Assembly (NCBI GenBank): GCA_030697825.1
Contig: JAUYOW010000316.1
Location: forward strand, 1-46,475
From: Gemmatimonadales bacterium
GTDB taxonomy: Bacteria > Gemmatimonadota > Gemmatimonadetes > Gemmatimonadales > JACORV01
Direction of reading: 5' to 3'
Length of the DNA: 46,475 bases
Shown here: positions 5,753-36,262 of the stretch, piece after piece
Layout of the letters: each line of letters opens with the position of its first letter
Position numbering within the stretch: the first letter of the stretch is position 1
Translations under genes and position numbers: made by a program
Notes under the pieces: model-generated
What the model was told of the DNA's origin: nothing
Seen by the model: the letters and a program-made list of their open reading frames with translations, nothing else
Databases searched by the model: none

Positions 5753-6428
5753 ACGTCCCGTCGTGGCCATCGACGGTCCGGCGGCGAGCGGGAAGAGCAC
5801 CACGGCCCGCGCGGTCGCGAAGGCGCTGGGCTTCACTCACCTCGACTCGGGGGCACTCTACCGCGCCCTGACCCTGGTTGCGCTGGAGCGCCTGGGCCCG
5901 GCGCCCCGGTGGGAAGCGGAAGCGATCGTCGCTGAGGCGCGGCGCCTGCCGGTCTCGGTGGCCGCTGCCGCCGGTGTCCTGGAGGTCACCGTGGGCGGTC
6001 TGCCTCTGGGGGACGCCATACGCTCGGAGGCGGTTACGCGTGAGGTCTCGCGGGTCGCGGCCATGAGCCCGGTCCGCGCCTTCGTGAATGACCTGCTCCA
6101 CGCCGCCGCGGCCGAGGGCGGGGTGGTGATGGACGGCCGTGACATCGGGACCGTCGTCTTCCCGGACGCCGAGGTGAAGGTGTTCCTCGTGGCCGCCCCC
6201 GAGGAGCGCGCGCGCCGGCGCCTGGCCGACCGGGGAAGGGTGCCGGATCCGGTCACCCTGAAAGCCGAGGCGGGTGCCTTGCTAGCCCGGGACGAGCACG
6301 ACCGGTCGCGGGACGTGGCGCCCCTGGCGCAAGCCTCTGACGCGGTGCTCATAGACACCACCCAACTCGGTTTCGACGAACAGGTTCGGCTGGTCGTGGA
6401 CCTTGTGCGGAAGGCGGCCGGCGGCTAG
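5745..6428 (+). CDS. cmk: Cytidylate kinase
   Basis: The 227-residue protein phosphorylates CMP and dCMP with ATP. It starts MRKRPVVAIDGPAASGKST, carrying the P-loop GPAASGKS, followed by the LDSGALYRALT substrate-binding segment and DGRDIGTVVFPDA, both diagnostic for Cmk. The LID region contains the Arg-rich ARRRLADRGR. I chose the ATG at 5745 because it gives the usual Cmk N-terminus and overlaps the last codons of aroA (8-base overlap), implying coupled translation. It is followed by rpsA after 89 bases. Confidence 0.95.
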   Translation: MRKRPVVAIDGPAASGKSTTARAVAKALGFTHLDSGALYRALTLVALERLGPAPRWEAEAIVAEARRLPVSVAAAAGVLEVTVGGLPLGDAIRSEAVTREVSRVAAMSPVRAFVNDLLHAAAAEGGVVMDGRDIGTVVFPDAEVKVFLVAAPEERARRRLADRGRVPDPVTLKAEAGALLARDEHDRSRDVAPLAQASDAVLIDTTQLGFDEQVRLVVDLVRKAAGG

Positions 6429-6517
6429 CGTTAACGGCTTGCCCGCCCCGGCCCTTTTGCCGGTAGTTCGATTCCTCTGTCCCGCGCCCGGAGAGGCGCA
6501 CTGAGGCCCCGAGTAGT

Positions 6518-8299
6518 ATGCTCACCCAGAACCAGGACGCCCCCGAGACGCTCGAGGGGACGCCGTCCGTCACCCCCCCAACGCCCACCAAGCTGAACGT
6601 CAGGCCCGATCTCTTCGACGAGAGCTATTCGCCCGAGCAGTACCAGACGATGATGGAGATGTACGAGGGTACTCTTCAGCATATCGAAGAGGGCGAAATC
6701 GTGATGTCGAGGGTTTTGCGGGTCACCGACAACGCCGTCATCCTCGACGTGGGCTTCAAGTCCGAAGGCGCCGTGGCGATCGAGGAGTTCAAGGACGCCA
6801 AGTCCCTCAAGGAAGGCGACGAGGTCGAGGTGTTCCTCGAGAGCCTCGAGGACAACGAAGGCGCGGTCATCCTGTCGAAGAAGAAGGCCGACTTCATGCG
6901 CGTCTGGGAGCGCATCCGCGTCGCCTACGAGAGCGATGAGCCGGTCGAGGGAATGCTCCAGAAGAAGATCAAGGGCGGGGTGGTCGTGGACCTGATGGGC
7001 GTGGACGCGTTCCTGCCCGGTTCGCAGATCGCGCTCCGCCGCGTGCCCAACATAGACGAGCTGCTGGGCCAGTCCTACCAGTTCAAGATCATCAAGCTCA
7101 ACAAGCGCCGCCGGAACATCGTCGTCTCCCGCCGGGTCATCCTCGAGGCGGAGCGGGCGACCAAGCGCGAACGCCTGATGAAGGAGCTGGAAGTCGGTCA
7201 GGTGCGCAAGGGCGTGGTCAAGAACATCACCGACTTCGGCGCCTTCATCGACCTGGGCGGGGTGGACGGCCTGCTCCACATCACCGACATGTCGTACGGC
7301 CGCGTCTCGCACCCGTCCGAGATGGTCAAGTTCGGCCAGGAGATCGAGGTCAAGATCCTCGATATCGACTGGGAGCGCGAGCGGATCTCGCTCGGCCTCA
7401 AGCAGCTCCAGACCTACCCTTGGACCGACGTCGCCGCCAAGTACCCGGTCGGCACGCGGGTGCAGGGAAAGGTCGTCAGCATCACCAACTACGGCGCGTT
7501 CATCGAGCTGGAGCCGGGGATCGAAGGCCTGGTCCACATCTCCGAGATGTCGTGGACCCGCAACGTGCGGCACCCGTCCAAGATCGTCTCCATCGGCGAG
7601 ACCATCGAAGCGGTCGTGCTCAAGGTGGACGAGGGCGAGGAGAAGATCTCGCTTGGCATGAAGCAGACCGAGCAGGACCCTTGGATGGTGTTGCCGCTCA
7701 AGTACCCGGTCGGCACGCGCATCACCGGGAAGGTGCGGAACCTCACCAGCTTCGGCGCTTTCGTGGAGATCGAGCCGGGCATCGACGGCCTCATCCACAT
7801 CTCCGACATGTCGTGGACCAAGCGCGTCCAGCACCCCTCGGAGGTCGTGAAGAAGGGTGACACGGTGGACGTGGTGATCCTCAACATAGACGCCGACAAC
7901 AAGCGCATCTCGCTCGGTCTCAAGCAGGCCGAGGAGGATCCGTGGTTGCGCATCGGCGAGACCTATCCGGTGGGTCGCGAGCTCAAGGGCCACGTGGTGC
8001 GCATGATGGACAAGGGCGTGGTCGTGGATTGCGGCAACGACATCGAAGGATTCGTCCCGATGAGCCAGCTGGGCATCCCGGACATCCAGAACCCGGCGGA
8101 CGGCGTGAAGGAAGGCCAGGTCGTCGAGCTGAAGGTCCTCGAGGTGGATCCCATCCACCACCGGATCGTGCTCGCGGCGCTGAGCTTCCCCGACGAGCCG
8201 CTCCGGGAGATCCCGAAGCCGTACATCGAGCCGGACCCGGAGAGCCCTGCGCCGGAGACGACGCCGGAGACGACGCCGGAGACGACGCCCGGGGCGTGA
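6518..8299 (+). CDS. rpsA: 30S ribosomal protein S1
   Basis: The 593-residue protein contains six S1/OB-fold RNA-binding repeats. The first (about 60-130) opens with GEIVMSRVLRV; repeats 3-5 are nearly canonical, each with a glycine-rich FGAFI/VDL or YGAFIEL strand followed by GLVHISEMSW and ISLGLKQ. S1 binds the 5' region of mRNAs and helps unfold them on the 30S subunit. An N-terminal tail of about 45 residues rich in Pro/Thr precedes the domains. The C-terminus ends in three ETTP repeats encoded by three perfect 12-base copies (8252-8287), which may vary between strains. Upstream bases 6429-6517 have GC-rich sequence with GGAGAGG far from the ATG; no clear promoter of its own is seen. Confidence 0.96.
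   Translation: MLTQNQDAPETLEGTPSVTPPTPTKLNVRPDLFDESYSPEQYQTMMEMYEGTLQHIEEGEIVMSRVLRVTDNAVILDVGFKSEGAVAIEEFKDAKSLKEGDEVEVFLESLEDNEGAVILSKKKADFMRVWERIRVAYESDEPVEGMLQKKIKGGVVVDLMGVDAFLPGSQIALRRVPNIDELLGQSYQFKIIKLNKRRRNIVVSRRVILEAERATKRERLMKELEVGQVRKGVVKNITDFGAFIDLGGVDGLLHITDMSYGRVSHPSEMVKFGQEIEVKILDIDWERERISLGLKQLQTYPWTDVAAKYPVGTRVQGKVVSITNYGAFIELEPGIEGLVHISEMSWTRNVRHPSKIVSIGETIEAVVLKVDEGEEKISLGMKQTEQDPWMVLPLKYPVGTRITGKVRNLTSFGAFVEIEPGIDGLIHISDMSWTKRVQHPSEVVKKGDTVDVVILNIDADNKRISLGLKQAEEDPWLRIGETYPVGRELKGHVVRMMDKGVVVDCGNDIEGFVPMSQLGIPDIQNPADGVKEGQVVELKVLEVDPIHHRIVLAALSFPDEPLREIPKPYIEPDPESPAPETTPETTPETTPGA
8252..8287 (+). repeat. Three tandem 12-base copies at the 3' end of rpsA
   Basis: CCGGAGACGACG occurs three times without change and encodes Thr-Pro-Glu-Thr in phase, giving the acidic ETTP tail of S1. 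The copies are in frame, so gain or loss of a unit would leave S1 intact. Confidence 0.8.
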
Positions 8300-8304
8300 C
8301 CGCC

Positions 8305-8336
8305 GCGGCGCCGTGGGGAGAACCCCGCGGCGCCGC
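8305..8336. terminator. Strong hairpin between convergent rpsA and the TonB receptor gene
   Basis: Bases 8305-8318 pair with 8323-8336 as a 14-base-pair GC stem (one G-T pair) closed by the tetraloop AGAA. There is no T-tract on either side, so it may act as a bidirectional structural barrier or 3'-end stabiliser rather than as a classic intrinsic terminator. Confidence 0.55.
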
Positions 8337-8362
8337 CGTGTTATGGACCCTGGCGGATCGGT

Positions 8363-10960
8363 CTAGAAGTCGGCCGTGATCCCCACGATGGCCCGGCGGC
8401 CGTTGACCGAGCCGCCGAAGAGGTGGTAGCGCCGCTGGTCGCTGAGATTCGTCGCGACGCCGTGCAGGCGCAGCTGCCGCGTGAGGCGATAGCTGCCGGC
8501 GAGGGTGATCGTCTGGCTCGCCGGGACGTACCCGGAGAAGATGCCGGCCGCCCAGTCCATCCCTTCCACGAAGCGCGCCGTGACGCCGAGGTCGGCGCGG
8601 TCATCGGCGTAGCGGAGCCCGAGCGTGACCTTCCACTTGGGCGTGTTCGGCACGAGCTGGTCGCCCAACCGCTGCTCGCGCACCTCGAAGTCGAACAGGC
8701 TGTACGAGCCGTCGAAGCGGATCCGGTCCGTGACGTGCACGGACGCACCGAGCTCCAGCCCCTGCTCGACGACGCGGCCGGCGTTGGTGTACGACACGAT
8801 CAAAGCCCGGCGCCCGTCAGGCAGGGTGGCCAGCAGCGGCCCGGCTGCGGCGTTCAGCTGGTTGAAGCCCCCCCGCAACAGGGGGACCGGCCTACGCAGC
8901 GGGTGCGTCGTCGGCAGACCGATGCGGGCCAGGCGTGCGTCCAGCGTGTCGAGCAAAGCGACGACCTCGCGGTCCTCATTGAGGCTGTAGAACGGATACT
9001 CCGGATTGACGCCCGGGAGCAGGTCGGTCACGAAGTTGCGCATGTCGTTCCGGTAGAGGTCGAGCGTCACGAAGCTGCGGCGCCCGACGTTCCCCTTGTA
9101 CCCGATCTCCCACCCTGTCACCGTCTCAACCTCGAGGTTGCGATTGCCCCGCGCCTGCACCAGCGTGAGCGAGTCGAAATTCCAGGGCAGCGGGGTGAGG
9201 TTGAGCCCGGCGGTCACGGAGGGAGGGAGGGACGCGGCCACTGCCGCCAGATAGGCGTTGAGGCTGGTCTGGAGGCGGCGCGGGCCGGCCGTCGGCGCTC
9301 CCGCCGGCACCCGCAGGAAGAACTCCGAGTAGTTGGGCGTCTGGAAGGCGCGGTTGACGGTGAGCCGGATCGAGTGGTCCGCGTGCGGCGCGAAGACGAG
9401 CGCGCCCTTGGGCGAGAACTGGGGCTCGAAAATGCTGCCGTCGTCGTAGCGGGCGGCAACCACGGCGCGCACCCACGAGTTCAGGCGCACCTCGATCTGG
9501 CCGAACGCCGAAGAGGTGTTGTCCGTACGATCGTCGTCGGCGGCGAGCATCAGCGTCGAATCGGTATCGACCGCGGAGCTCCGGTACGACGCCCCGGCCA
9601 CGAGGCGGCCCCGGTCGCCGAAGAGCGACTGGTTGAACTGGCCCTCCACGTGATAGATGCTGGAGTGTTCCAACAGGGGAATCCCGGATACGAGCGAGTA
9701 CTGCGAATCGACCGTGTTCCGACCGGAGTACCAGCCCATCACGCTGAACCGGTTCGTGGCCACGTTGACCCGCGCCCACGGGCGATCGGCCTTGGTGACC
9801 TGGACCCGCCCGATCCCTGTGACGAACGACTCGTTTTCCACCCGCGCGGTACCGGCTTCAATGGTCGTGACCGCGCCGCCCGCACCGTAGTAATCCAGGC
9901 GCGCGGAGCCGTACTGATTCCGCAGCGGATCGCGCTCCCCCGTGAGCAGGTTCGCGGGATCGAGCTCCTGGCCGTTGAGCGGGCGGACTTCCCGCGACCG
10001 GTTGAAGGTGGTGTCGCCGTACTCGCGCCGCAGGTCGAGCGAGTCGCTCGCGGTGCGCGAGCGGCTCCACGTGTCGCTCTGCGTGAGGCCGAGGTTCACG
10101 CGATAGCCAAGGCGCCCGTCGGCCGCGACGCCGGCGTGCCGGACGTCCGCGCGAAAGGTGCTCAACTCGCCCGCGGCCAGCGTCACGCGGGTGCCAACGA
10201 CCTCCCGAGGCGCCGGCGTGATGATGTTCAGGACCCCCGCGAACGCGTTCGCGCCGTACAGCGCGGACCCGGGGCCGCGCACCATCTCGATGCGGCCGAT
10301 TTCATCCAGCGGGATGGCCATGGCGTTCCACTCCTGCGCCCCGAGGAACGCGATGGAGAGATCCCGGCCGTCCTGGAGCACGAGGATCCGGCGGTTGAGC
10401 GAAGAGTTGAAGCCCCGGGCGTTCACGTTGAAGTCGTTCATGCCGCTCTGGACGACGTCCACGCCCGGCACGGTCGCGAGGGCCAAGGGCATCTGCGCCG
10501 TGGTCGACAGCTCGCGCGCGACGGCCGGCTCGACCACCGCGACAGCCGCGGGCGCCTCGACGATCCGCTCCGCCGTGCGGGAGGCCGCCACGACGACGAT
10601 CTCGCTGATCGTCACCGGCTGGAGGTCGAGGCTGGCGTCGGCGGTGACCGTCCGGCCCCCCGTCACCTCGACCGCCAGCTCCCGCGGCTGGAAGCCGAAC
10701 AGCCGGAACACTAGGACCTGGCTTCCGGCGGGCACGCGGGAGATGGCGAACCGCCCTTCGGCATCGGTCACGGTCTGGAGTCCGGTCGAACGGACGGCGA
10801 CCGTGATCCCGCGGATCGGTCGCTGGTCGTCAGCTCGTCGCACGACGCCGCGGACGCTGCCGGTGGCTTCCAGAGCCGCGGCCGGGGCGGGAAGCGCGGT
10901 CATGCTGACGAGGACGGCCACCAGCGCGACCAGGACCTGCACACCTGCGCGTCGAAGCAT
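8363..10960 (-). CDS. TonB-dependent outer-membrane receptor with N-terminal carboxypeptidase-like domain
   Basis: The 865-residue protein begins with a signal peptide (MLRRAGVQVLVALV..., cleavage near AAALEA), then a carboxypeptidase-regulatory-like beta-sandwich (about 32-115: GSVRGVVRRADDQRPI...TDAEGRFAISRVPAG), a plug domain (about 125-250: ATVPGVDV, NVNARGFNSSLNRRILVLQDG, EMVRGPGSALYGANAFAGVLNI) and a 22-strand barrel ending in the aromatic residue of VGITADF. Such receptors import chelated metals, vitamins or glycans using TonB energy. The substrate cannot be told. GGAGG 8 bases before the ATG at 10960 fixes the start; a much longer reading upstream lacks a signal peptide at its N-terminus. 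No TonB, ExbB or SusD partner lies nearby, so the gene appears solitary. Confidence 0.9.
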   Translation of the reverse strand: MLRRAGVQVLVALVAVLVSMTALPAPAAALEATGSVRGVVRRADDQRPIRGITVAVRSTGLQTVTDAEGRFAISRVPAGSQVLVFRLFGFQPRELAVEVTGGRTVTADASLDLQPVTISEIVVVAASRTAERIVEAPAAVAVVEPAVARELSTTAQMPLALATVPGVDVVQSGMNDFNVNARGFNSSLNRRILVLQDGRDLSIAFLGAQEWNAMAIPLDEIGRIEMVRGPGSALYGANAFAGVLNIITPAPREVVGTRVTLAAGELSTFRADVRHAGVAADGRLGYRVNLGLTQSDTWSRSRTASDSLDLRREYGDTTFNRSREVRPLNGQELDPANLLTGERDPLRNQYGSARLDYYGAGGAVTTIEAGTARVENESFVTGIGRVQVTKADRPWARVNVATNRFSVMGWYSGRNTVDSQYSLVSGIPLLEHSSIYHVEGQFNQSLFGDRGRLVAGASYRSSAVDTDSTLMLAADDDRTDNTSSAFGQIEVRLNSWVRAVVAARYDDGSIFEPQFSPKGALVFAPHADHSIRLTVNRAFQTPNYSEFFLRVPAGAPTAGPRRLQTSLNAYLAAVAASLPPSVTAGLNLTPLPWNFDSLTLVQARGNRNLEVETVTGWEIGYKGNVGRRSFVTLDLYRNDMRNFVTDLLPGVNPEYPFYSLNEDREVVALLDTLDARLARIGLPTTHPLRRPVPLLRGGFNQLNAAAGPLLATLPDGRRALIVSYTNAGRVVEQGLELGASVHVTDRIRFDGSYSLFDFEVREQRLGDQLVPNTPKWKVTLGLRYADDRADLGVTARFVEGMDWAAGIFSGYVPASQTITLAGSYRLTRQLRLHGVATNLSDQRRYHLFGGSVNGRRAIVGITADF

Positions 10961-11189
10961 ACGCCGTTCCTCCAAATAGGATGGGTTGTGAACGGAAGCT
11001 GATCCTTGGCCGCCGCTGGCAGCCTGGATGGCGCTCCAAGATGCAACGCCGCCCCGATTCTGGACAGAGGGGTACCCGGAGTGGGAGGCGCCGATGGCCG
11101 CCGGTCGCGTCCCGGTATTATCGTTCGCGCGGGCGGGGCGCCAGGTGGGTGCCCCGCGGAAGCTGCGCACAAGGCGGCCGGACGTGACG
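10961..11189. other. Divergent intergenic region between the TonB receptor and carboxylase genes
   Basis: These 229 bases separate two divergent genes and must hold both promoters. A TATTAT at 11116-11121 could be a -10 box for the carboxylase beta gene, but no convincing -35 lies 16-18 bases upstream. No hairpin, riboswitch-like fold or operator palindrome stands out by eye. Confidence 0.3.
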
Positions 11190-12734
11190 ATGCAGAACAA
11201 GCTCAAACGCCTGGAGGCCCTCGCGGCCGAGGCCGTCGCTGGCGGCGGCCCCGATCGGGTCGCCTCCCAGCATGGCAAGGGCAAGCTCACCGCGCGGGAG
11301 CGGCTCGACATCCTCCTCGATGAGGGGACGTTCGTCGAGCTCGACCGCTTCGTCACCCACCGCTCGCACGACTTCGGCCTGGACGAGCAGAAGATTCTCG
11401 GCGACGGCGTGGTTACGGGCTACGGCAAGGTGAACGGCCGGATCGTCTACGTATTCTCGCAGGACTTCACCGTCTTCGGCGGGTCGCTCTCCGAGGCTCA
11501 CGCCGAGAAGATCTGCAAGGTGATGGATCTCGCGATGCGGAACGGCGCGCCGGTGATCGGGCTCAACGATTCGGGCGGCGCGCGCATCCAGGAGGGCGTC
11601 GCCTCGCTGGGCGGCTATGCCGAGATCTTCCTGCGCAATACGCTGGCCTCCGGCGTGGTGCCGCAGATCTCGGTCATCCTCGGCCCGTGCGCGGGCGGCG
11701 CGGTGTATAGCCCGGCCATCACCGACTTCGTCTTCATGGTGCGCGGCACCAGCTTCATGTTCGTGACCGGCCCCAACGTCGTGAAGACGGTCACGCACGA
11801 GGACGTGACGGCCGAGCAGCTGGGCGGCGCGGACGTGCACGCCGGGACCTCGGGGGTCGCGCACGTCGTGGCGCCGAGCGAGCCGGAGTGCCTCGCGGCG
11901 GTGCGCGCGCTGCTCGACTACCTGCCTTCCAACAACCTTGAGAGCCCGCCCAGCGTCCCGACGAAGCAGGCCGACGAACGGCGCGACGAGTCGTTGCTCG
12001 CCATAGTCCCCGACGAGCCGTCGAAGCCGTACGACATGCACGACGTGCTGAAGCGCGTGGTGGACGGCGGCGGTTTCTTCGAGATCCACCGCGAGTACGC
12101 CGCGAACATCATCTGCGGCTTCGCGCATCTGGGAGGGCGCGCGGTGGGTATCGTCGGAAACCAGCCGGCGGCGCTCGCCGGCGTGCTCGACATCGGCGCC
12201 TCGCTCAAGGCGGCGCGCTTCGTGCGCTTCTGCGACGCGTTCAACATCCCGATCGTAACTTTCGTGGACGTGCCCGGCTTCCTGCCCGGAACCGCCCAGG
12301 AGCACGGCGGCATCATCAAGCACGGCGCGAAACTGCTCTATGCGTACTGCGAGGCGACGGTCCCGAAGATCACGGTGATCACCCGCAAGGCGTACGGCGG
12401 CGCGTACGACGTCATGAGCAGCAAGCACATCCGCGGAGACGTGAACCTCGCGTGGCCGACCGCGGAGATCGCGGTGATGGGGCCCAAGGGCGCGGTGGAG
12501 ATCCTGTTCAAGAAGGAGATCGAGACGAGCCCGGACCCGGAAGCCGCCGCCGCCGAGCGGCTGGGAGAGTACACCGAGAAGTTCGCGCATCCGTACATCG
12601 CGGCGGGGCGGGGGTATGTGGACGACGTGATAGATCCGCGCGACACGCGGGCCCGGCTGATCGACGCGCTTGAGATGCTGCGGACCAAGCGGGACCGCAA
12701 TCCGCCGAAGAAGCATGGGAACATCCCCCTGTAA
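11190..12734 (+). CDS. Acyl-CoA (probably propionyl-CoA) carboxylase, carboxyltransferase beta subunit
   Basis: The 514-residue protein is a complete carboxyltransferase of the crotonase superfamily: N-terminal ATP-free half ([24 protein letters not shown], then [31 protein letters not shown]) and C-terminal half with [24 protein letters not shown] and [13 protein letters not shown], both oxyanion-hole regions typical of PccB/AccD5. It transfers the carboxyl group from biotin to propionyl- or acetyl-CoA. PccB is favoured by overall pattern, but substrate choice depends on few residues, so acetyl-CoA is possible. Start: ATG at 11190 has GGA upstream; GTG at 11184 is an alternative adding two residues. 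The biotin carboxylase subunit follows, separated by an inverted-repeat element. Confidence 0.92.
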
Positions 12735-12735
12735 C

Positions 12736-12821
12736 GGGAGCCGGGAGCCGGGAGTCGGACCTTCGGACGTGCGCCGCAGCCGCGTCGCGCGCCCGCCGGT
12801 ACGGCTCCCGGCTCCCGGCTC
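12736..12821. repeat. Inverted tandem-word element, locus A
   Basis: Left arm 12738-12754 is built from tandem copies of GGGAGCC and pairs base for base with right arm 12805-12821 (tandem GGCTCCC), around a loop of 50 bases. Extra inner pairs are possible. The left arm follows the stop codon directly and the right arm ends 6 bases before the ATG of the biotin carboxylase gene, leaving no room for a Shine-Dalgarno sequence. After the left arm comes TCGGACCTTCGGACG, similar to the bases after the arms at locus B. Confidence 0.8.
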
Positions 12822-12827
12822 ACGCTC

Positions 12828-14342
12828 ATGAAACGCGTCCTCGTCGCCAACCGCGGGGAGATCGCGCTGCGCATCATCCGCGGCTGCCACGACGAGGGGA
12901 TCGAGGCGGTCGCGGTGTATTCTGACGTGGACCGGCTTTCTACGCACGTGCGCGCGGCGGACGCGTCAGCCGCCATCGGTGGTGCCGCGCCCGCCGAGTC
13001 CTACCTCGACATCCAGAAGCTCCTCGACGCCGCGAAACAAACCGGCGCGGACTCGGTGCATCCAGGCTACGGCTTCCTTTCCGAGCGGGCGGACTTCGCG
13101 AAGGCGGTGACGGCCGCCGGACTCACGTTCATCGGGCCGCCCGCCTCGGCCATCGCCGCGATGGGCGACAAGACGGTCGCGCGCAAGCGCATGCGCGAGG
13201 TCGGCGTACCGGTGGTGCCCGGCACGGTGGAGGCGATCCGCACCGTGGAGCAAGCCACGAAGTCCGCCGCCACCATAGGCTACCCGATCCTCCTCAAGGC
13301 CGCGGCGGGCGGGGGCGGCCGCGGGATGCGCGTGGTGCGGGACTCGAGGGAGATGGAGGGTGCGTTCGAGGCCGCGCGGAACGAGGCCACCAAGGCGTTC
13401 GGCGACGGGCGCATCTACCTCGAGCGGCTCCTGGAGCGGCCGCGCCACGTGGAGGTCCAGGTCCTCGCCGACCAGCACGGCCGCACCATCAACCTCGGTG
13501 AGCGCGAGTGCAGCATCCAGCGGCGCCACCAGAAGCTGATCGAAGAGGCGCCGTCGCCCGCCGTCACCGCGGCGATCCGACGCCAGATGGGTGAGGCGGC
13601 GGTGCGCGCCGCGCTGGCGGTGGGATACGTCAGCGCCGGCACGGTGGAGTTCCTGCTGATGCCTAACGGCGACTTCTTCTTCCTGGAGATGAACACCCGT
13701 CTCCAGGTGGAGCATCCGGTCACCGAGCTGATCTTCGGCGTCTACCTGGTGCGCCTGCAGCTGAAGATCGCGCAGGGGCATCATATCAGCCTGCCGGAGC
13801 GCGCGCTCGCGCCCCGTGGCTGGGCGATGGAGTGCCGCATCACCTGCGAAGACCCGTTCGCCGACTTCATGCCGGCGGGCGGGACGGTGGGTCATATGCG
13901 CGTGCCGGCGGGACCCGGCGTGCGTTGGGACGGCTGGATCGAACCGGGCAGCGAAGTGCCGCTGCACTACGACTCGCTCCTCGGCAAGCTGGTGGTCTGG
14001 GGCGAGTCGCGGGAGCGCGCGATCAAGCGCATGCGGCGCGCGCTCGACGATCTCGTCATCGTGGGCGTGCCGACGTCCCGCGAGTTTCACCAGAGGGTGA
14101 TGGTCGAACCGGGGTTCTGCGCCGGCGACATCGACATCGAGTACTGGGAGCGGGTGGGCCGCGGGCTGATGGCGCGTCCGCCGGATCCGGACCTCCTGGA
14201 GGCTGCGGCCATCGCGGCGGCGCTGCTCGAGGAAGAACGGCACGGAGGCCGGCGGCCGCCCGATGGCCGGCCGGGGGAGCCGGACGCCGGCGACCCGGCG
14301 AGCTCGTGGCTGCGCGAGGCGCGTCGTGAAGGGCTGCGGTGA
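12828..14342 (+). CDS. Biotin carboxylase subunit of acyl-CoA carboxylase
   Basis: The 504-residue protein carboxylates biotin using ATP and bicarbonate. It starts MKRVLVANRGEIALRI, the standard biotin-carboxylase N-lobe; HPGYGFLSE, the glycine-rich ATP-grasp loop KAAAGGGGRGM, the HVEVQVLAD segment and the EMNTRLQVEHPVTE metal/active-site strand are all present. Unlike full-length PccA/MccA it stops about 60 residues after the carboxylase C-lobe and carries no biotin-carrier domain; the tail is Arg/Pro/Gly-rich and looks disordered. The carrier is probably supplied by the separate protein at 21690-22196. Its GTGA stop overlaps the start of the methyltransferase gene. Confidence 0.93.
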   Translation: MKRVLVANRGEIALRIIRGCHDEGIEAVAVYSDVDRLSTHVRAADASAAIGGAAPAESYLDIQKLLDAAKQTGADSVHPGYGFLSERADFAKAVTAAGLTFIGPPASAIAAMGDKTVARKRMREVGVPVVPGTVEAIRTVEQATKSAATIGYPILLKAAAGGGGRGMRVVRDSREMEGAFEAARNEATKAFGDGRIYLERLLERPRHVEVQVLADQHGRTINLGERECSIQRRHQKLIEEAPSPAVTAAIRRQMGEAAVRAALAVGYVSAGTVEFLLMPNGDFFFLEMNTRLQVEHPVTELIFGVYLVRLQLKIAQGHHISLPERALAPRGWAMECRITCEDPFADFMPAGGTVGHMRVPAGPGVRWDGWIEPGSEVPLHYDSLLGKLVVWGESRERAIKRMRRALDDLVIVGVPTSREFHQRVMVEPGFCAGDIDIEYWERVGRGLMARPPDPDLLEAAAIAAALLEEERHGGRRPPDGRPGEPDAGDPASSWLREARREGLR

Positions 14343-15652
14343 CGGCGGAGCCGGGCGCCGCCGGCACGCTCGGCCCGGCGCAGCCGGCGGCCGCGGCGGC
14401 GGAGGAGATCCTCATCGAATCGCTCGCTGCGGGAGGGGACGGCGTGGGCCATCTCGCCGACGGGATCACGGCGTTCGTGCCCCGCGCCGCGCCCGGAGAC
14501 CGATTGCTCCTTCACGAGGTGCGACGCCGGAAACGCCATGCCCGCGCCGAGATCGCGGCGATCCTCTCCGCCGGTCCCGATCGGGTCGAACCGCCCTGCG
14601 CGCACTTCACCCGCGACCACTGCGGCGGGTGCCAGTGGCAGCACCTGTCGGCCGAGGCGCAGGCGGCGGCGAAGCGCCGCATCGTCGGCGACGCGCTCCG
14701 GCGCATCGGCGGGCTGGACGTCCCGGATCCGGAGCTGGTGCCGAGCCCGCGTTCGCTTCGCTATCGGACGACGGTGACCCTAACGGTGCGTCCCACCGGC
14801 GGCGCGCCGACCGTCGGCTTCCACGACGCCACCGACAGCGGCCGAGTCTTCCCGCTCGAGCACTGCGCTATCGCCCGTGACGAGCTCAACGCGCTGTGGC
14901 GGGCGGTCGAGCCGTATCGCGCGTCGCTGCCGGCCGGGAACGACGTCAGGCTCAAGCTCCGCGTCGCGCCCGACGGAGGCCTGCACGTGGTCGTGGCCGG
15001 CGGCGACGACGCCTGGACCACCTCCGAGCCGATGGCGCGCGCCGCGGCCGCGGCGGGCCTTGCGGCGACCATCTGGTGGCAGCCGGCGGGCGGAGCGGTG
15101 AGGCGGATGTCGGGACCCGACGCGGATGCCGGCGCTGTCTCGTTCGAGCAGGTCAACGCGGAGGTGGCGGCGCTCTTGCGCGAGGCCGTCGTGAGGGCCG
15201 CCGCGCCTCCGGCCGGCACGCCGGACCGTTGGCGCGTGCTGGACCTCTACGCCGGCGCCGGCGACACGGCGCTGCCGCTCGCCGAGGGCGGCTGCGAGGT
15301 CGTCATGGTGGAGCTGGACCGCCGGGCGGTCGAGAGGGCGCGCGATCGGGCCCGGGCGAAAGGGCTGACGGTCCGCTGTCTAGCCGCGAGGGTGGAGGAG
15401 CGCCTGGAGAAGCTGCTGCCGGCGGACGCCGTCATCGTGAACCCGCCGCGCGCTGGACTCTCGGAGCCGGTCACCCGGCTGCTGGCGTCGGCTCCGCCGC
15501 GACGCCTGGTCTACGTCTCCTGCGATCCCGCGACGCTCGCCCGGGACCTCGAGCGCCTCGGCGCGACCCGCGACCGGATCGCATCGGTGCAGGCGTTCGA
15601 CATGTTCCCCGAGACCAGCCACATCGAGACGGCGGTGGTTCTCGACCGCTAG
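14339..15652 (+). CDS. 23S rRNA (uracil-5-)-methyltransferase, RumA/RlmD-like, with Fe-S cluster
   Basis: The 437-residue enzyme belongs to the TrmA/RlmC/RlmD family that makes 5-methyluridine in RNA with S-adenosylmethionine. An N-terminal TRAM domain (about 20-75) is followed by four Cys in CAHF...HCGGCQWQH that bind a [4Fe-4S] cluster, the Rossmann methyltransferase core (VLDLYAGAGDTALPLAEGG), VNPPRAGL, and the catalytic-cysteine motif VYVSCDPATLARDL. Length and motif order match RlmD (m5U1939) best, but RlmC or another uridine target cannot be excluded. The GTG start overlaps the biotin carboxylase stop by four bases. It is the last gene of the carboxylase operon. About 180 bases without a gene follow. 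Confidence 0.9.
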   Translation: MTAEPGAAGTLGPAQPAAAAAEEILIESLAAGGDGVGHLADGITAFVPRAAPGDRLLLHEVRRRKRHARAEIAAILSAGPDRVEPPCAHFTRDHCGGCQWQHLSAEAQAAAKRRIVGDALRRIGGLDVPDPELVPSPRSLRYRTTVTLTVRPTGGAPTVGFHDATDSGRVFPLEHCAIARDELNALWRAVEPYRASLPAGNDVRLKLRVAPDGGLHVVVAGGDDAWTTSEPMARAAAAAGLAATIWWQPAGGAVRRMSGPDADAGAVSFEQVNAEVAALLREAVVRAAAPPAGTPDRWRVLDLYAGAGDTALPLAEGGCEVVMVELDRRAVERARDRARAKGLTVRCLAARVEERLEKLLPADAVIVNPPRAGLSEPVTRLLASAPPRRLVYVSCDPATLARDLERLGATRDRIASVQAFDMFPETSHIETAVVLDR

Positions 15653-15833: not shown

Positions 15834-16952
15834 TTGGACATCGGCATTCCGAAGGAATCGCTCGCGCGGGAGCACCGGGTGGCGCTCGCCCCGTCGGGGG
15901 TCAAGACCCTGGTCGAGCGCGGGCACCGGGTGTACGTGGAGACGGGCGCGGGCGGCGAAGCGGGCCACGGGGACGGCGACTACCAGTCGGCGGGCGCGAC
16001 GGTGGTGTACGCCCGCGACGAGGTATTCCACCGCTCCGGGCTGCTGTTAGGCGTCCAGGCACCCGCTCCCGCCGACTACCTGCTGCTCCAGCCGGGGCAG
16101 ACGGTGCTGGCGTTCTGGATGCTGCCGGCCCTGCACGCCGAAAGCCTCCGCGTCCTGATGGACCGTCAGATCACGGCGATCGGGCTGGAGGCGATCGAGG
16201 ACGATGACGGCCGGGCGCCGGCGCTGACCAGCATGTCGGAGATAGCGGGAGCGCTGGCGGTGATCGTCGGGGCGGGACTGCTCCTCAACGAGTTCGGAGG
16301 GAAGGGGATCCTGCTGACCGGCGCGCCCGGTGTGCCTCCCGCCCAGCTGGTGATACTCGGCGCGGGGGTGCTGGGCCAGGCTGCAGCGCGCGCGGCCGCC
16401 GGCCTGGGCGCCGAGGTCCTGCTGCTGGACGTCAGCACCGAGAAGCTCCGGGAGGCGGTGGACCGGCTTCCGGGACGGATGCCGACGATGGTGGCGTCGC
16501 CTCACAACATCGAACGGGCGCTCTCGTTCGCCGATCTCGTCATCGCGGCGCCCGCAGTGCACGGCGACCGCGCCCCGGTCGTGATCACCCGCGCCATGCT
16601 GAAGAGGATGAAGCCTCGCAGCGTCATCATGGACTTCGCGATCGACATGGGCGGGTGCCTCGAGACCTCTCGGCCCACCTACTTCCCGAACCCGACCTAC
16701 GAGGTGGACGGGATCCTCCACTTCTGCGTCCCGAATCTCCCCGCCATCGTCGCCAGGTCGGCCACGCTGGCGCTGACGAACACGGTCGGGCCGTGGGTCA
16801 TGGAGCTGGCCGAGAAGGGCGCCGACGCCGCGCTGGCCGGGGACCGGGCGTTGCGGCGCGGAGCGTACCTGCACGGCGGGCGGTGCGTGAAGGAGTCGCT
16901 CTCCCAGCTGTTCGGGCTGCCGTTCCAGCCCTTTTCCGTCCCGGAGCGTTAG
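15834..16952 (+). CDS. Alanine-dehydrogenase-like protein lacking the catalytic Lys and His
   Basis: The 372-residue protein shares fold and length with the true Ald at 35150-36262. It keeps substrate-binding R15 (EHRVALAP), the TSMSEIAG helix, the NAD-binding GAGVLGQAAARAAAGLGAEVLLLD and the Asp of MDFAIDMGG. Position for position, however, catalytic K75 is Gln (LGVQAP) and H96 is Met (AFWMLP). That segment resembles the transhydrogenase alpha subunit PntA, whose counterpart also lacks these residues. It probably binds NAD(H) but is unlikely to deaminate alanine. I chose the TTG at 15834 because GGGAGG lies 9 bases upstream. The CoA-transferase gene follows after 5 bases, so the two are an operon. 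No PntB is nearby. Alternatives: a regulator, another oxidoreductase, or a transhydrogenase-like remnant. Confidence 0.75.
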   Translation: MDIGIPKESLAREHRVALAPSGVKTLVERGHRVYVETGAGGEAGHGDGDYQSAGATVVYARDEVFHRSGLLLGVQAPAPADYLLLQPGQTVLAFWMLPALHAESLRVLMDRQITAIGLEAIEDDDGRAPALTSMSEIAGALAVIVGAGLLLNEFGGKGILLTGAPGVPPAQLVILGAGVLGQAAARAAAGLGAEVLLLDVSTEKLREAVDRLPGRMPTMVASPHNIERALSFADLVIAAPAVHGDRAPVVITRAMLKRMKPRSVIMDFAIDMGGCLETSRPTYFPNPTYEVDGILHFCVPNLPAIVARSATLALTNTVGPWVMELAEKGADAALAGDRALRRGAYLHGGRCVKESLSQLFGLPFQPFSVPER

Positions 16953-16957
16953 GCACG

Positions 16958-18256
16958 ATGCGGTGGAACGAGATGTACCGCGCGCGCATCACTTCGGCCG
17001 AAGAGGCGCTGCGCTGCATCTGGCCGGGCGCCCACGTCTGGATCCACGGCGGTTGCGCCAACCCGGAGGAATTGACGCGCGCCATGGTCGGCCGCGCCCC
17101 GGAGCTCAGGGACGTCGAGGTATCGCACCTGCTCACCTTTGGGAGCGCGGACCACGTGGACCCCAGGTACGCCGGCTCCTTCCGCCATCGCGCCATGTTC
17201 ACCGGGCCGAACGCGCGTGAGGCGGTGAACGCCGGGCGCGCCGACTACGTGCCGGTGTTCCTTTCCGAGATCCCCAGGCTCATCAGGGCGGGCATCCTGC
17301 GCGTGGACGTGGCGCTGGTGCACTTGTCGCGGCCCGACGAGCACGGCTTCTGCTCATACGGGGTCAGTGTCGAATGCACCAAGGCGGCGGCAGAGCATGC
17401 CGGCCAGGTGGTGGCGCTGGTGAACAAGCAGATGCCCCGCTCGCTGGGCGACGCGTTCATCCACGTGTCCAAGCTCACCCACGTCGTCGAGATAGACCGC
17501 CCGGTGGTCGAGCTGCCGCAGGCGGGCCGGGTCGGCCCGGTGGCACGGGCCATCGGCGAGCACGTCGCGGGGATGATCGAGGACGGCGACACCCTGCAGA
17601 TGGGGATCGGCGAGATCCCGGACGCGGTGCTCCTGTTCCTCAAGGAGAAGCGCCACCTCGGCATCCACACCGAGATGTTCTCCGACGGGGTCGTGGAACT
17701 CTTCGAGAGCGGAGTCATAACCGGCGAACGGAAGACGCTCCATCCCGGCAAGATCGTCTCGTCGTTCGTGCTGGGCTCGCGGAAGACATTCGCCTTCCTC
17801 GACAACAATCCCTTCGTCGAGTTCCACCCGTCGGACTACGTCAACGACCCGTTCATCATCGCGCGGCACGACAACATGGTCGCGATCAACTCGGCTCTGT
17901 CCGTGGACCTGACGGGACAGGTCAACAGCGACTCCATCGGTACCAGCATCTACTCGGGGTTCGGGGGGCAGGTGGACTTCATCCGGGGCGCGGCGCGCTC
18001 CAACGGCGGGAGGCCGATCATCGCCCTGCCGTCCACGGCGAAGAACGACACGCTCTCCCGGATCGTGGACACGCTCGCGGAGGGCGCGGGTGTGGTCACG
18101 ACGCGCGCCGACGTGCACTACGTGGTCACCGAGTACGGCGTGGCGTCGCTGTTCGGGCTGAGCCTGCGGGAGCGCGCGCGGGCGCTGATCGCGATCGCCC
18201 ATCCCGGATTCCGCGACCAGCTCCTCGCCGCGGCCCGGAAGCGGAACCTGCTCTAG
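16958..18256 (+). CDS. Acetyl-CoA hydrolase / 4-hydroxybutyrate CoA-transferase family protein
   Basis: The 432-residue protein is a two-domain class I CoA-transferase. Motifs include VHLSRPDEHGFCSYGVSVE in the first half, GIGEIPDAV (about 216-224), the probable catalytic Glu in TEMFSDG (E239), and the C-terminal GGQVDFIRGAARSNGG and HYVVTEYGVASLFG. These match the AarC/Cat1/Cat2/4HbcT family, which moves CoA between acyl groups such as acetate, succinate, butyrate or 4-hydroxybutyrate through a glutamyl-CoA intermediate. I cannot assign the acyl pair. The ATG at 16958 starts 5 bases after the Ald-like gene. It converges on the 2-oxoacid oxidoreductase operon, whose acyl-CoA products could be its substrates. 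Confidence 0.88.
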   Translation: MRWNEMYRARITSAEEALRCIWPGAHVWIHGGCANPEELTRAMVGRAPELRDVEVSHLLTFGSADHVDPRYAGSFRHRAMFTGPNAREAVNAGRADYVPVFLSEIPRLIRAGILRVDVALVHLSRPDEHGFCSYGVSVECTKAAAEHAGQVVALVNKQMPRSLGDAFIHVSKLTHVVEIDRPVVELPQAGRVGPVARAIGEHVAGMIEDGDTLQMGIGEIPDAVLLFLKEKRHLGIHTEMFSDGVVELFESGVITGERKTLHPGKIVSSFVLGSRKTFAFLDNNPFVEFHPSDYVNDPFIIARHDNMVAINSALSVDLTGQVNSDSIGTSIYSGFGGQVDFIRGAARSNGGRPIIALPSTAKNDTLSRIVDTLAEGAGVVTTRADVHYVVTEYGVASLFGLSLRERARALIAIAHPGFRDQLLAAARKRNLL

Positions 18257-18268
18257 CCTGCCGCGGGC

Positions 18269-19717
18269 TTACCGGGCCGCGAAGGTCCCTTCCGCCGCGG
18301 TCTCGCGCACCGCTCGCTGGCCCCGCGCGAACGCCTCCTCGTTGAGCGGGATGAGCGCGCACTTCTCGCGCAGCTCCTGGCGCATCGCGGTGAGGAAGCT
18401 CCCGGCGGGGAAGATGCCGGTGGCCTCCTGCAGCGCGCCCAGCGCGACCACGTTCTTGACGACCGCCTTGCCGAGGTCGCGCGCGATCTGCGTGAACGGC
18501 ACGCCGTGGGCGTGCACGCCCTCGGCCAGCGGCGGCACCTCCGCGATCACCGAGCGGTCGTAAACGATGGTCCCCCCGGGCCGGACCAGGGGCCCGAACT
18601 TGGCCAGGCTCGGCGCGTTGAACGCGATGAGGATGTGCGGGTCCGGCGCGGCCGGCGAGAGCACCTCGCCGTCGGCGACGTGCACGTCGGCGTACGACGT
18701 GCCGCCGCGGGACTCGGGCCCGTAGCTCGGGATGTGCGTCGAGTCGAAGCCCTCGTTGATCGCCGCCCGCGTGATCAGCAGCGCCGCCGTCTGCGCGCCG
18801 TCGCCGCCCGCGCCGGCCAACTTCAACGCGATGTCGTGGCGCGCGAGGTGTGCCGGGAAGCCGGCGGCGTGCCGCGGCGCCGGCTCCGCGGACGACGCGA
18901 CCGCCGCGACGAGCTGCTCCGGCACGAAGCTCGGCCGGGCCGGCGGCGGTACCGTGGCGGCGTCGGTGAGGTCCTTCTTCACACCGAGCGGGAACACGGG
19001 GACCATCTGGTCCCGCACCCACGCCTCCGTCTGCTCCGGGTCCAAACCGAGGTGCGTCGGGCACTCCGCGAGCACCTCGACGAACGCGAAGCCCTTGTTC
19101 CGCACCTGCAGGTCCACCGCCTTGCGGATGGCCTTCTTGGCCCGCACGCGCTGCTTGTTGTCGTACAGCGCGACGCGCTCGACGTAGACCGGGCCGTCGA
19201 GCCCGGCGATCAGCTCGGCCATGCGCATCGGCAGGCCCATCGCCCTGACGCGGCCGTCGGGCGACGTGGTCGTCCGTTGGCCCATCAGCGAGGTCGGCGC
19301 CATCTGGCCGCCGGTCATCCCGTAGATCGCGTTGTTGATGAAGATCACCGTGATCGGGATCCCCAGCTGCGCCGTGCTCACGATCTCGGCGAGCCCGATG
19401 GAGGCGAGATCGCCGTCGCCCTGGTAGCTGATCACGATCGAGTCGGGGTTGGCGAGCTTGTGGCCGACCGCGACGGCCGGCGCGCGACCGTGCGCCGCCT
19501 GCGTGTTGCCCACATCGAAGTAGTAATACAGGAAGACCGCGCACCCCACCGGCGAGACCGCGACGGTGCGGTCCTGGATGCCGAGATCCTCGATCGCGTC
19601 CGCCAGGTACTTGTGCGCCAGTCCGTGGCCGCAGCCGGGGCAGTAGTGGGTCGCGTGGGCCTTCAGCCCTTCGGCGTGCTCGTGCCGCTCGAAGCGGCGG
19701 TAGAAGACCGTGCTCAT
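18269..19717 (-). CDS. 2-oxoacid:ferredoxin oxidoreductase, fused beta-gamma subunits
   Basis: The 482-residue protein joins two subunits that are usually separate. The beta part (1-250) binds thiamine diphosphate: YCPGCGH (25-31), SPVGCAVF, GDGDLASIG (100-108) and NNAIYGMTGGQMAPTS, typical of 2-oxoglutarate/2-oxoisovalerate types. An Ala/Pro-rich linker (about 251-293) leads to the gamma part (294-482) with LAGAGGDGAQTAALL and SYGPESRGGTSYADV. With the alpha subunit it oxidises a 2-oxoacid plus CoA to acyl-CoA, CO2 and reduced ferredoxin. The ATG at 19717 overlaps the alpha stop in an ATGA. Substrate is probably branched-chain 2-oxoacids or 2-oxoglutarate, not settled by sequence alone. Confidence 0.92.
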   Translation of the reverse strand: MSTVFYRRFERHEHAEGLKAHATHYCPGCGHGLAHKYLADAIEDLGIQDRTVAVSPVGCAVFLYYYFDVGNTQAAHGRAPAVAVGHKLANPDSIVISYQGDGDLASIGLAEIVSTAQLGIPITVIFINNAIYGMTGGQMAPTSLMGQRTTTSPDGRVRAMGLPMRMAELIAGLDGPVYVERVALYDNKQRVRAKKAIRKAVDLQVRNKGFAFVEVLAECPTHLGLDPEQTEAWVRDQMVPVFPLGVKKDLTDAATVPPPARPSFVPEQLVAAVASSAEPAPRHAAGFPAHLARHDIALKLAGAGGDGAQTAALLITRAAINEGFDSTHIPSYGPESRGGTSYADVHVADGEVLSPAAPDPHILIAFNAPSLAKFGPLVRPGGTIVYDRSVIAEVPPLAEGVHAHGVPFTQIARDLGKAVVKNVVALGALQEATGIFPAGSFLTAMRQELREKCALIPLNEEAFARGQRAVRETAAEGTFAAR

Positions 19718-21129
19718 GCGAGGACCTCCTCCGCCAGGACGCGTTCCACGATCTCCTGCTGTTGCGGGAGCATGCCGCCCTGACGCCGGATATGCTCGAT
19801 GGGCATCGGCCCGAGCACCCGCGCGTGGGAGAGCGCGAGGCGGAGCTCGTCCTCCAGCTGGCCGCTGCTCGCTTCGACGACCACGATCCGGTGCGCATGG
19901 TCGAGGAGCGGCAGCAGCTGGTCGATCGGGAAGGGCCACAGCGTGATCGGCCGGAAGAGTCCCGCCTTGACGCCGCGCTCTCGCAGCTCCCGCACCGCGC
20001 CCTTCGCCATCTGCGAGGGCGTGGTGCAGGCCACGAGCAGCGTCTCGGCGTCTTCGCACTGGTACCGGTCGGCGCGCTGCTCGGCCGCGCTCATCCGCGC
20101 GTACTTCCGGTCGAGGTGCTGGTTGCGCGCCTCGAGGTCGGGCTCCGAGAGGTAGATGGAGTTGATCAGGTTGCCGCGGTGCGCGAGGTCGCCCCAGACG
20201 GCCCATGCGGGGAGGCCCGGCTTCACCATGGTGCGCGGCAGGCGCACCTTCCCGGTGATCTGGCCGAGGTAGCCGTCGCCGAGGACCACGACGGGGTTCC
20301 GGTAGACGAACGAGAGCTCGAAGGCCAGCATCGTGAGGTCGAGCATCTCCTGCGGGGTGGCCGGCGCGAGGACGATGGCGTGCGTGTTGCCGTGGCCGAG
20401 GCCCCGGCACGCCAGTTTGATGTCGGACTGCTCGGGTGCGATGTTGCCGAGCCCCGGCCCGCCGCGCATCACGTTCACGAACACGCCCGGGACCTCGGAG
20501 CCGATCATGTACGAGATCCCCTCGAGCATCAGGCTGAAGCCCGGCGAGCTGGTGAACGTCATGGCGCGGAGGCCCGCGCCGCCGCAACCGTACATCATGT
20601 TCACCGTCGCCACTTCGCTGACGGCCTGGAGGAACACGCCGTCGAGCTGGGGCAGCACTTTCGCCATCAGCTCCGCGCCTTCGGTGGACGGCGTGATCGG
20701 GTAGCCGAATACGTGCCGGCACCCCGCGATGAGCGCCCCGATGGCGGAGGCGTAGTTGCCCTTGATCAGCTGCGGCTCGGTCTCGCCGAGCGGCACGACC
20801 TCGTCCGGGATCGGCTCGGGCACCGGTGCGCCCGCGCCGCGCTCCCCGAACAGCTTGGCCGGATCCCGGAGCTCGAAGTCGGTCCGCTCGCCCACCTGGG
20901 GCTGAAGCCCGAACGGCTCGGGGCAGGCGTCGAAGCAAAGGCCGCAGCCGTTGCAGCGGGTGAGGTCGAGGAGGACGGGCACCAGGCCGGTGGCGGGGTT
21001 GATCTCCGTCCCGGCCGTGAGGCAGTCCTTGGGACAGGCGCTGATGCAGCGTCCGCAGCCCTTGCAGTACTCCGGCAGGAGGAACGGCTGCGGCTTGGCG
21101 GCCTTCCGGGTCGCGGCGGTCGCGGTCAT
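19714..21129 (-). CDS. 2-oxoacid:ferredoxin oxidoreductase, alpha subunit with N-terminal ferredoxin domain
   Basis: The 471-residue protein starts with a two-cluster ferredoxin domain (C22, C25, C28, C32 and C59, C62, C65, C69), normally the separate delta subunit, and continues as the alpha subunit: GNYASAIGALIAGCRHVFGYPITPSTEG, then MTFTSSPGFSLMLEGISYMIGSEVP and NVMRGGPGLGN. The YPITPST motif interacts with the thiamine site and is characteristic of the 2-oxoglutarate/2-oxoisovalerate branch rather than of pyruvate enzymes. Together with the beta-gamma protein downstream (ATGA overlap) all four functions are covered by two polypeptides. A small four-cysteine protein is encoded directly upstream and also overlaps by ATGA. 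The clusters pass electrons to a soluble ferredoxin. Confidence 0.93.
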   Translation of the reverse strand: MTATAATRKAAKPQPFLLPEYCKGCGRCISACPKDCLTAGTEINPATGLVPVLLDLTRCNGCGLCFDACPEPFGLQPQVGERTDFELRDPAKLFGERGAGAPVPEPIPDEVVPLGETEPQLIKGNYASAIGALIAGCRHVFGYPITPSTEGAELMAKVLPQLDGVFLQAVSEVATVNMMYGCGGAGLRAMTFTSSPGFSLMLEGISYMIGSEVPGVFVNVMRGGPGLGNIAPEQSDIKLACRGLGHGNTHAIVLAPATPQEMLDLTMLAFELSFVYRNPVVVLGDGYLGQITGKVRLPRTMVKPGLPAWAVWGDLAHRGNLINSIYLSEPDLEARNQHLDRKYARMSAAEQRADRYQCEDAETLLVACTTPSQMAKGAVRELRERGVKAGLFRPITLWPFPIDQLLPLLDHAHRIVVVEASSGQLEDELRLALSHARVLGPMPIEHIRRQGGMLPQQQEIVERVLAEEVLA

Positions 21130-35149: not shown

Positions 35150-36262
35150 ATGATCATCGGTGTCCCCAAAGAGATCAAGACCAACGAGTACCGCGTCGCC
35201 GTCGTCCCTTCGGGCGTCGAAGTCCTCGCCAGCCGCGGGCACCAAGTGCTCGTCGAGCAGGGGGCTGGCCTGGGCTCCGGCTTCGCGGACGACCTCTACA
35301 CCGCAGCCGGGGCCGAGCTGATCTCCAAGGCGGCCGACGTGTGGGCACGCGCCGAGATGATCTGCAAGGTGAAGGAGCCGATAGGCGCCGAGTGGCCGCA
35401 CCTGCGGAAGGACCAGGTGATCTTCACCTATTTCCATTTCGCGGCTGACGAAGCGCTCACCCGGGCGCACATGAAGTCGGGGGCCGTGTGCATCGCCTAC
35501 GAGACGGTGCAGACCGATTCCGGTGAGCTGCCGCTCCTCACGCCGATGTCGGAGGTGGCGGGGCGGATGGCGGTGCAGGAGGGGGCGAAGTACCTGGAGA
35601 AGCTGCACGGCGGCCGCGGTGTCCTCCTCGGCGGAGTTCCGGGCGTGCCGCCGGCCGAGGTGGTCATCCTGGGCGGAGGCGTGGTGGGCCTCAACGCCGC
35701 CAAGATGGCCGCGGGCCTGGGCGCGCGCGTCACCCTGCTCGACATCAACCTGGACCGGCTCCGCTACCTGTCCGACGTGATGCCGGCCAACGTCGAGCTG
35801 GTCTACTCCAACCGTCACAGTATCCTCGACGCGATTACGCGGGCCGACCTGGTTATCGGCGCGGTGCTGATCGTGGGCGGGAAGGCGCCCAAGCTGGTGC
35901 GTCGCGAGGACCTGAAGCGCATGAAGCCCGGTTCGGTGATCGTGGATGTCGCGGTGGACCAGGGCGGCTGCATCGAGACGGTGAAGCCGACGACGCACGA
36001 GAATCCGACCTACGTCGTGGACCACGTCCTCCACTACGCCGTGGCCAACATGCCGGGCGGGGTCCCGCGCACCTCCACGCTCGCGCTCACCAACGCGACC
36101 TTCCCATACACCAAGCGTCTGGCCGAGCTGGGATGGAAGAAGGCGTGCCGGGACGATCACGCGCTGCTCCTGGGCGTGAACATGGCCTCGGGCGAGGTGA
36201 CGTATCCGGGGGTGGCTGAGGCGTTCGGGTTGCCGCTGGCGGATGTGGGGAAGTTCGTGTGA
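35150..36262 (+). CDS. ald: Alanine dehydrogenase
   Basis: The 370-residue NAD-dependent enzyme interconverts alanine with pyruvate and ammonia. Numbering fits the well-studied family: R15 (NEYRVAV), K75 (CKVKEP) and H96 (TYFHFAAD) in the substrate site, LGGGVVGLNAAKMAAGLGARVTLLD for NAD, and DVAVDQGG with the catalytic Asp. The start MIIGVPKEIKTNEYR is canonical. The ATG at 35150 lies after the locus E repeat; no clear ribosome site apart from GAGG 9 bases upstream. It would supply pyruvate and ammonia from alanine. Compare the altered paralogue at 15834-16952. Confidence 0.95.
   Translation: MIIGVPKEIKTNEYRVAVVPSGVEVLASRGHQVLVEQGAGLGSGFADDLYTAAGAELISKAADVWARAEMICKVKEPIGAEWPHLRKDQVIFTYFHFAADEALTRAHMKSGAVCIAYETVQTDSGELPLLTPMSEVAGRMAVQEGAKYLEKLHGGRGVLLGGVPGVPPAEVVILGGGVVGLNAAKMAAGLGARVTLLDINLDRLRYLSDVMPANVELVYSNRHSILDAITRADLVIGAVLIVGGKAPKLVRREDLKRMKPGSVIVDVAVDQGGCIETVKPTTHENPTYVVDHVLHYAVANMPGGVPRTSTLALTNATFPYTKRLAELGWKKACRDDHALLLGVNMASGEVTYPGVAEAFGLPLADVGKFV

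Follow-up and report, generated by a model that had tools for sequence, protein, structure and literature searches.

The locus analyzed here raises the question of what a protein with the fold of alanine dehydrogenase (Ald) may do once it has lost two residues, K75 and H96, on which that enzyme depends: Ald mutants with R15, K75, H96 or D269 replaced by Ala were reported to be inactive (PMC10401832), His96 and Asp270 mutants of M. tuberculosis Ald were inactive (PMC4691113), and D270 of Ald is described as holding NADH by its nicotinamide and ribose (PMC10401832). The gene lies in a 46,475-nucleotide stretch of a contig from a Gemmatimonadales bacterium (the window), 5 bases ahead of a CoA-transferase gene with its ATG at 16958, and the pair converges on genes of a 2-oxoacid:ferredoxin oxidoreductase (KOR); an earlier note on this DNA had described both the spacing and the facing arrangement, and both were confirmed. 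AldL is used below as a convenience name for the clade of Ald-like proteins without K75. The features referred to are the following (window coordinates).

15834..16952, + strand: AldL, alanine-dehydrogenase-fold protein without K75 and H96 (372 aa, TTG start)
16056..16058, + strand: codon CAG for Q75 of AldL (Lys in all true Ald)
16119..16121, + strand: codon ATG for M96 of AldL (His in all true Ald)
16958..18256, + strand: CoA-transferase, acetyl-CoA hydrolase / 4-hydroxybutyrate CoA-transferase family, the AldL partner (432 aa)
17672..17674, + strand: codon GAG for E239 of the CoA-transferase, aligned with E238 of 3gk7 and retained
18269..19717, - strand: KOR beta+gamma fusion, a recurrent neighbor
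19714..21129, - strand: KOR alpha with N-terminal ferredoxin domain (VorB-like), a recurrent neighbor
35150..36262, + strand: true alanine dehydrogenase of the same genome (K75, H96), the reference, outside the module

An Ald-like clade without K75

The open reading frame of AldL was found intact, with a TTG start codon at 15834, a good ribosome-binding site (GGGAGG) nine bases upstream, and a start position (MDIGIPKE) that is shared by its orthologues. Alignment with the true Ald of the window ran without a gap through position 96 and bore out what the earlier note had read from it, namely the K75Q and H96M replacements and the retention of R15 and of the Asp of the nucleotide site (Ald/AldL: position 15 R/R, 75 K/Q, 96 H/M, 270 D/D). 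The protein comprises the domains AlaDh_PNT_N and AlaDh_PNT_C; it scored 359.2 bits with TIGR00518 (alanine dehydrogenase), below the curated cut-off of 391.85, and 136 bits with TIGR00561 (PntA) versus a cut-off of 444. It shares 43% identity with Ald and 31% with the PntA of the same genome, in which true Ald, PntA, and AldL are the three clear superfamily members. An AlphaFold single-protein model (pLDDT 94) showed a confident Ald fold, with a TM-score of 0.93 to 2vhx (M. tuberculosis Ald with NAD+ and pyruvate), and the closest solved relatives are Alds at about 42% identity. The best 50 matches of a fold search (structure library up to April 2026) included ordinary Ald and PntA structures, and 9vae was absent from them.

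Relatives were collected by scanning a single genome of each species, which gave 35, and by further searches in Chloroflexota, an Acidobacteriota-type phylum, the phylum of the window, Deinococcota, and Myxococcota. The resulting 229 genes yielded 202 distinct proteins after removal of duplicates, 119 with K75 and 83 without it. R15, H96, and D270 are present in 119/119 K75 proteins, whereas the 83 non-K75 proteins, found across many phyla, all keep R15 and D270 but retain H96 in 69 cases. Their position 75 is occupied by G (26), A (22), S (14), Q (5), N (4), H, T, or D (3 each), and Y, V, or F (one each), while H, A, Q, G, M, and I occur at position 96 of the clade. The earlier note's suggestion that K75Q/H96M might mark a group was thus not upheld, and such a fixed signature was rejected, since both positions vary and the group is defined by the absence of K75. 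A second candidate, that AldL is always additional to a true Ald, was likewise rejected: at the search threshold, a separate K75 match was missing in 15 of the 18 AldL genomes searched.

In a maximum-likelihood tree, 67 of 68 non-K75 proteins, including that of the window, formed one clade (SH-aLRT 100) that branches within Ald but apart from the active enzymes, with PntA on a separate branch; a position inside active Ald, which the earlier note had named as refuting its reading, was thus not obtained. The likeness of the altered strand to PntA, also pointed out there, is real (VNAP/VQAP) but superficial, and descent of AldL from PntA was rejected by identity, profile scores, and tree. The only outsider, L254, carries K75H among true Alds. 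It is an independent replacement in a true-Ald lineage, in which H96 is kept and a CoA-transferase neighbor is absent. L164, the nearest neighbor of the AldL clade, retains K75. The tree places a single loss of K75 at the base of the clade and later losses of H96, at least three in number: in the window subclade (A, G, or M), in Zixibacteria and a relative (Q), and in L193 (I). H96 is missing from 10/10 members of the window subclade, compared with 0/119 among K75 Alds.

On the substrate side, the AldL clade has drifted at K73, K75, E76, Y94 (to F), P132, M133, and M301, and with eleven different residues replacing K75, position 75 looks unconstrained. R15, E118, D270, N300, G138, and the two Rossmann glycines, G175 and G177, do not vary across the clade, and S134 and D198 hardly vary; that the glycines, D270, D198, and S134 are conserved among sequences so divergent suggests that AldL uses the nucleotide. 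R15 and N300 are likewise conserved in PntA, a protein that lacks its own small-molecule substrate; their invariance therefore neither discriminates between the hypotheses nor proves catalysis. The window subclade has Trp at position 95, Pro at 98, and A, G, or M at 96, which looks like a release of constraint rather than the rise of a new catalytic residue. Since K75A and H96A mutants of Ald are reported to be inactive, alanine dehydrogenase activity of AldL is very unlikely, and so, as judged from its residues, is any catalysis by the Ald mechanism in the window protein, from which both are gone. Most AldL members keep H96, R15, and D270, and modified catalysis is therefore possible in them.

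Pairing with a CoA-transferase and redox neighbors

The CoA-transferase of the window is full length (PF02550 + PF13336) and scored 304.6 bits with TIGR03948, below the cut-off of 674.8. Its E239 aligns with E238 of the 4-hydroxybutyrate CoA-transferase of Clostridium aminobutyricum (3gk7), the catalytic glutamate of that enzyme. With duplicates removed, a CoA-transferase gene lies directly downstream of 75/83 non-K75 genes and of 0/119 K75 Ald genes, a very large difference that stands for one evolutionary event with long maintenance, since the clade lost K75 and acquired the pairing a single time, at its base. The paired genes are on the same strand and often overlap or lie within 20 bases of each other. 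The earlier note had asked whether such adjacency is constant; it is the rule, with eight exceptions. The transferase gene is divergent in L020, is encoded elsewhere in each of the genomes of L183, L192, L195, and L204, and stands at the end of the AldL gene run in G530; L187 comes from a genome with another AldL, which adjoins a transferase; and on the short contig of L012 no transferase was found, while a second AldL of that genome (L094) adjoins one.

The histories of the two proteins agree. Their distance matrices are correlated (Mantel r 0.85, with 0 of 2000 permutations as high), and the same main subgroups were recovered in both trees. Mean identity is 47% for AldL and 60% for the CoA-transferase, by which measure AldL is the faster-evolving of the two. 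Of 15 Deinococcota genomes checked that carry a related transferase, 14 gave a K75/H96 Ald as the Ald-family protein and no AldL; in one of these (L146), the transferase occupies the same place, with the same downstream gene, as in paired genomes. The transferase can thus persist without AldL, and this, together with the faster evolution of AldL, is as expected for an accessory subunit. Among close relatives of the window genome, L140, L141, L142, and L145 have a 59-61% identical CoA-transferase without AldL, next to genes that by eye are D-serine/threonine aldolase-like, D-amino acid aminotransferase-like, and mostly glyoxalase-like.

The recurrent neighbors of AldL handle ferredoxin or NAD(P)H electrons (KOR, NuoEFG, NfnAB, Hdr). 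The order korA-korBC-aldL-coaT is found in L013, L143, L272, L281, and L282, and in the window the KOR genes are convergent just downstream. In G530, G581, and G573, the genes run AldL - NuoE - NuoF - NuoG - NfnA - NfnB - CoA-transferase, and in G539 the same run has two more genes after AldL, so that the AldL/transferase pair brackets an NAD(P)H/ferredoxin module. These neighbors suggest a setting in the anaerobic metabolism of amino acids or organic acids, with a balancing of the ferredoxin and NAD(P)H pools.

Several loci showed further details. A conserved AldL-NuoEFG-NfnAB-CoA-transferase run followed by an RNase-H-like gene is present in L312 (1737-11492), L313, L314, and L315 (also L316 and L317), a single lineage from the Acidobacteriota search, in which the NuoG-like protein has a molybdopterin domain. 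The L143 operon (6156-14814) contains a gene of the ADP-forming acetate-CoA ligase type, KOR alpha, KOR beta-gamma, AldL, and the CoA-transferase, together with an NAD-dependent epimerase-family gene (threonine-dehydrogenase-like by eye). In Zixibacteria (L319:1263-8531 and L043:1-5728), genes for an HdrA-like multi-flavin protein (1480 aa) and HdrB/HdrC-like and NuoEF-like proteins are divergent from the AldL/CoA-transferase pair.

Solved structures and the proposed role of the pair

A PDB sequence search revealed that the closest solved transferase is a chain present in 9vag, 9wns, and 9wnu, the last two of which contain chains named 'alanine dehydrogenase' and '4-hydroxybutyrate coenzyme A transferase' together. 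The AldL chain has A75, H96, R15, and D270 and shares about 97% identity with a Deinococcota protein whose gene has a four-base overlap with the gene of its transferase; the source organism is presumably Thermus-like. The names, counts, and sequences of the chains in 9wns/9wnu indicate that AldL and the CoA-transferase form a physical complex, this evidence coming from PDB chain lists and applying to the Deinococcota orthologue pair, and the counts (12 in 2 entries, 18 in 3 entries) point to six of each chain per entry. A literature search returned no papers on the complex or on the codes 9vae, 9vag, 9wns, and 9wnu, and the pairing seems to be undescribed in the literature searched, though structures have been deposited.

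The degenerated catalytic pair, the retained NAD site, the clade-wide pairing, the congruent trees, and the co-occurrence in PDB entries, all observed directly, led us to hypothesize that AldL is a catalytically degenerate protein that binds NAD(H) and, as the partner of the CoA-transferase, gates it within the complex, a proposal that we favor over its rivals but regard as evenly poised. AldL would then be an Ald-fold, NAD(H)-binding subunit that has lost alanine oxidation and serves the adjacent CoA-transferase, its hexamer probably assembling with six transferase chains, to go by the chain counts. The CoA-transferase, with its retained catalytic glutamate, would perform the chemistry, moving CoA between an acyl-CoA and acetate or a similar acid; the acyl-CoA would most likely come from the neighboring KOR, acting on 2-oxo acids derived from amino acids. 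NADH or NAD+ would be bound in the retained Rossmann site of AldL, and an open-closed domain movement of the Ald type may tune the transferase to the redox state of the cell; it is above all this redox gating, beyond the stoichiometry and the acyl substrate, that we infer. In the broader form of the hypothesis, held more tentatively and at slightly less than even confidence, a retired alanine dehydrogenase would act as the NADH sensor of a widespread redox-gated CoA-transferase and link acyl-CoA use to the ferredoxin/NADH balance in amino-acid-fermenting bacteria. The earlier note's view of a protein that kept its NAD site and took on a new role is supported, although what deserves interest is the AldL/CoA-transferase pair and not the Ald paralogue by itself.

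The main rival holds that AldL is an active NAD-dependent oxidoreductase for another substrate (a different amino acid, an imine, or a hydroxy/amino acyl compound) that hands its product to the CoA-transferase in the complex or receives it from there. Such a role would account for R15 and D270 in 83/83 proteins and H96 in 69/83, and for the pocket residues 94, 133, and 301 having changed together with 75, as in a change of substrate; a complex encoded in KOR operons also fits a substrate-passing pathway. We nevertheless consider it less likely than the gating model, as position 75 is hypervariable, H96 is gone in the window subclade, Zixibacteria, and L193 with no alternative acid/base fixed, and Deinococcota relatives keep the transferase without AldL. 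That AldL merely scaffolds or stabilizes the CoA-transferase, its NAD site being conserved for folding, would agree with the loss of catalytic residues and with the physical complex, but such a role appears improbable given invariant Rossmann glycines and D270 and near-invariant D198 and S134 in sequences that otherwise differ widely, and given neighbors that are redox enzymes.

It is much less probable still that AldL works as a normal alanine dehydrogenase that tolerates the substitutions. Its fold and closest solved relatives are those of Ald (TM-score 0.93, about 42% identity), and alanine formation would suit fermentative operons; against this stand the score of 359 bits below the TIGR00518 cut-off of 391.85, the reported inactivity of K75A and H96A mutants, the separate clade, and a separate intact Ald in the same genome. 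A sequencing or assembly artefact at codons 75 and 96, the error that the earlier note had allowed for, or a decaying pseudogene has nothing to recommend it except a draft genome of 333 contigs and is hardly credible: the reading frame and the partner gene are intact, ten subclade proteins share the losses, and the AlphaFold pLDDT is 94. Because no clade member has K75 and 10/10 subclade members lack H96, sequencing error is in practice excluded.

Comparison with known systems points to Ald (EC 1.4.1.1; TIGR00518; 2vhx, 2eez) as the evolutionary parent of AldL, with which it shares the fold (TM 0.93), the domain order, R15, E118, D270, N300, and the Rossmann site. AldL differs from it by the clade-wide loss of K75, the loss of H96 in the window subclade, a score below the curated Ald cut-off, and the pairing and complex with a CoA-transferase. 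PntA, or domain I (1l7e, 4izh), is likewise an Ald-related NAD(H)-binding protein with a residue other than Lys at position 75, and it works through a partner without a small-molecule substrate of its own, as is proposed for AldL. In contrast to PntA, AldL is found on a separate branch at 31% identity and next to a CoA-transferase and KOR, without a PntB or domain III partner. The Thermus-like pair of 9wns/9wnu (with 9vae and 9vag) is orthologous to that of the window, its CoA-transferase being about 60% identical; its AldL has A75, whereas the window AldL has lost H96 too. The 4-hydroxybutyrate CoA-transferase family (3gk7/3qdq; PF02550 + PF13336) resembles the window transferase in full length and retained catalytic Glu. 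To our knowledge, its characterized members act without an AldL partner, and we know of no CoA-transferase under NAD(H) control through a regulatory subunit that derives from a dehydrogenase.

Many AldL genes are probably annotated as alanine dehydrogenase, as is the solved Thermus-like one, and used as such in metabolic models, an annotation that conflicts with the missing reaction-essential residues. The module would couple NAD(H) to the metabolism of acyl-CoA in several phyla, mostly in uncultured bacteria, and would offer an example of an enzyme turned regulatory partner, whose mechanism the existing Thermus-like structures make testable.

Origin of the pair in this genome

In both trees, the AldL and CoA-transferase of the window fall inside an otherwise Acidobacteriota group, whereas the genome's true Ald clusters with those of its order. 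AldL was absent from the three genomes of one sister genus of the same family, and the KOR genes of the window are 72% identical to those of L013. The simplest reading of these sequence relationships is that the pair was gained horizontally, perhaps together with the KOR genes. A binning error is unlikely, because Ald and AldL lie on one contig. The window also contains genes for an acyl-CoA carboxylase carboxyltransferase (mmdA-like) and a biotin carboxylase (11028-14342, + strand), just upstream of RlmD and AldL, and a gene of the tryptophanase / tyrosine phenol-lyase family (37145-38503, - strand).
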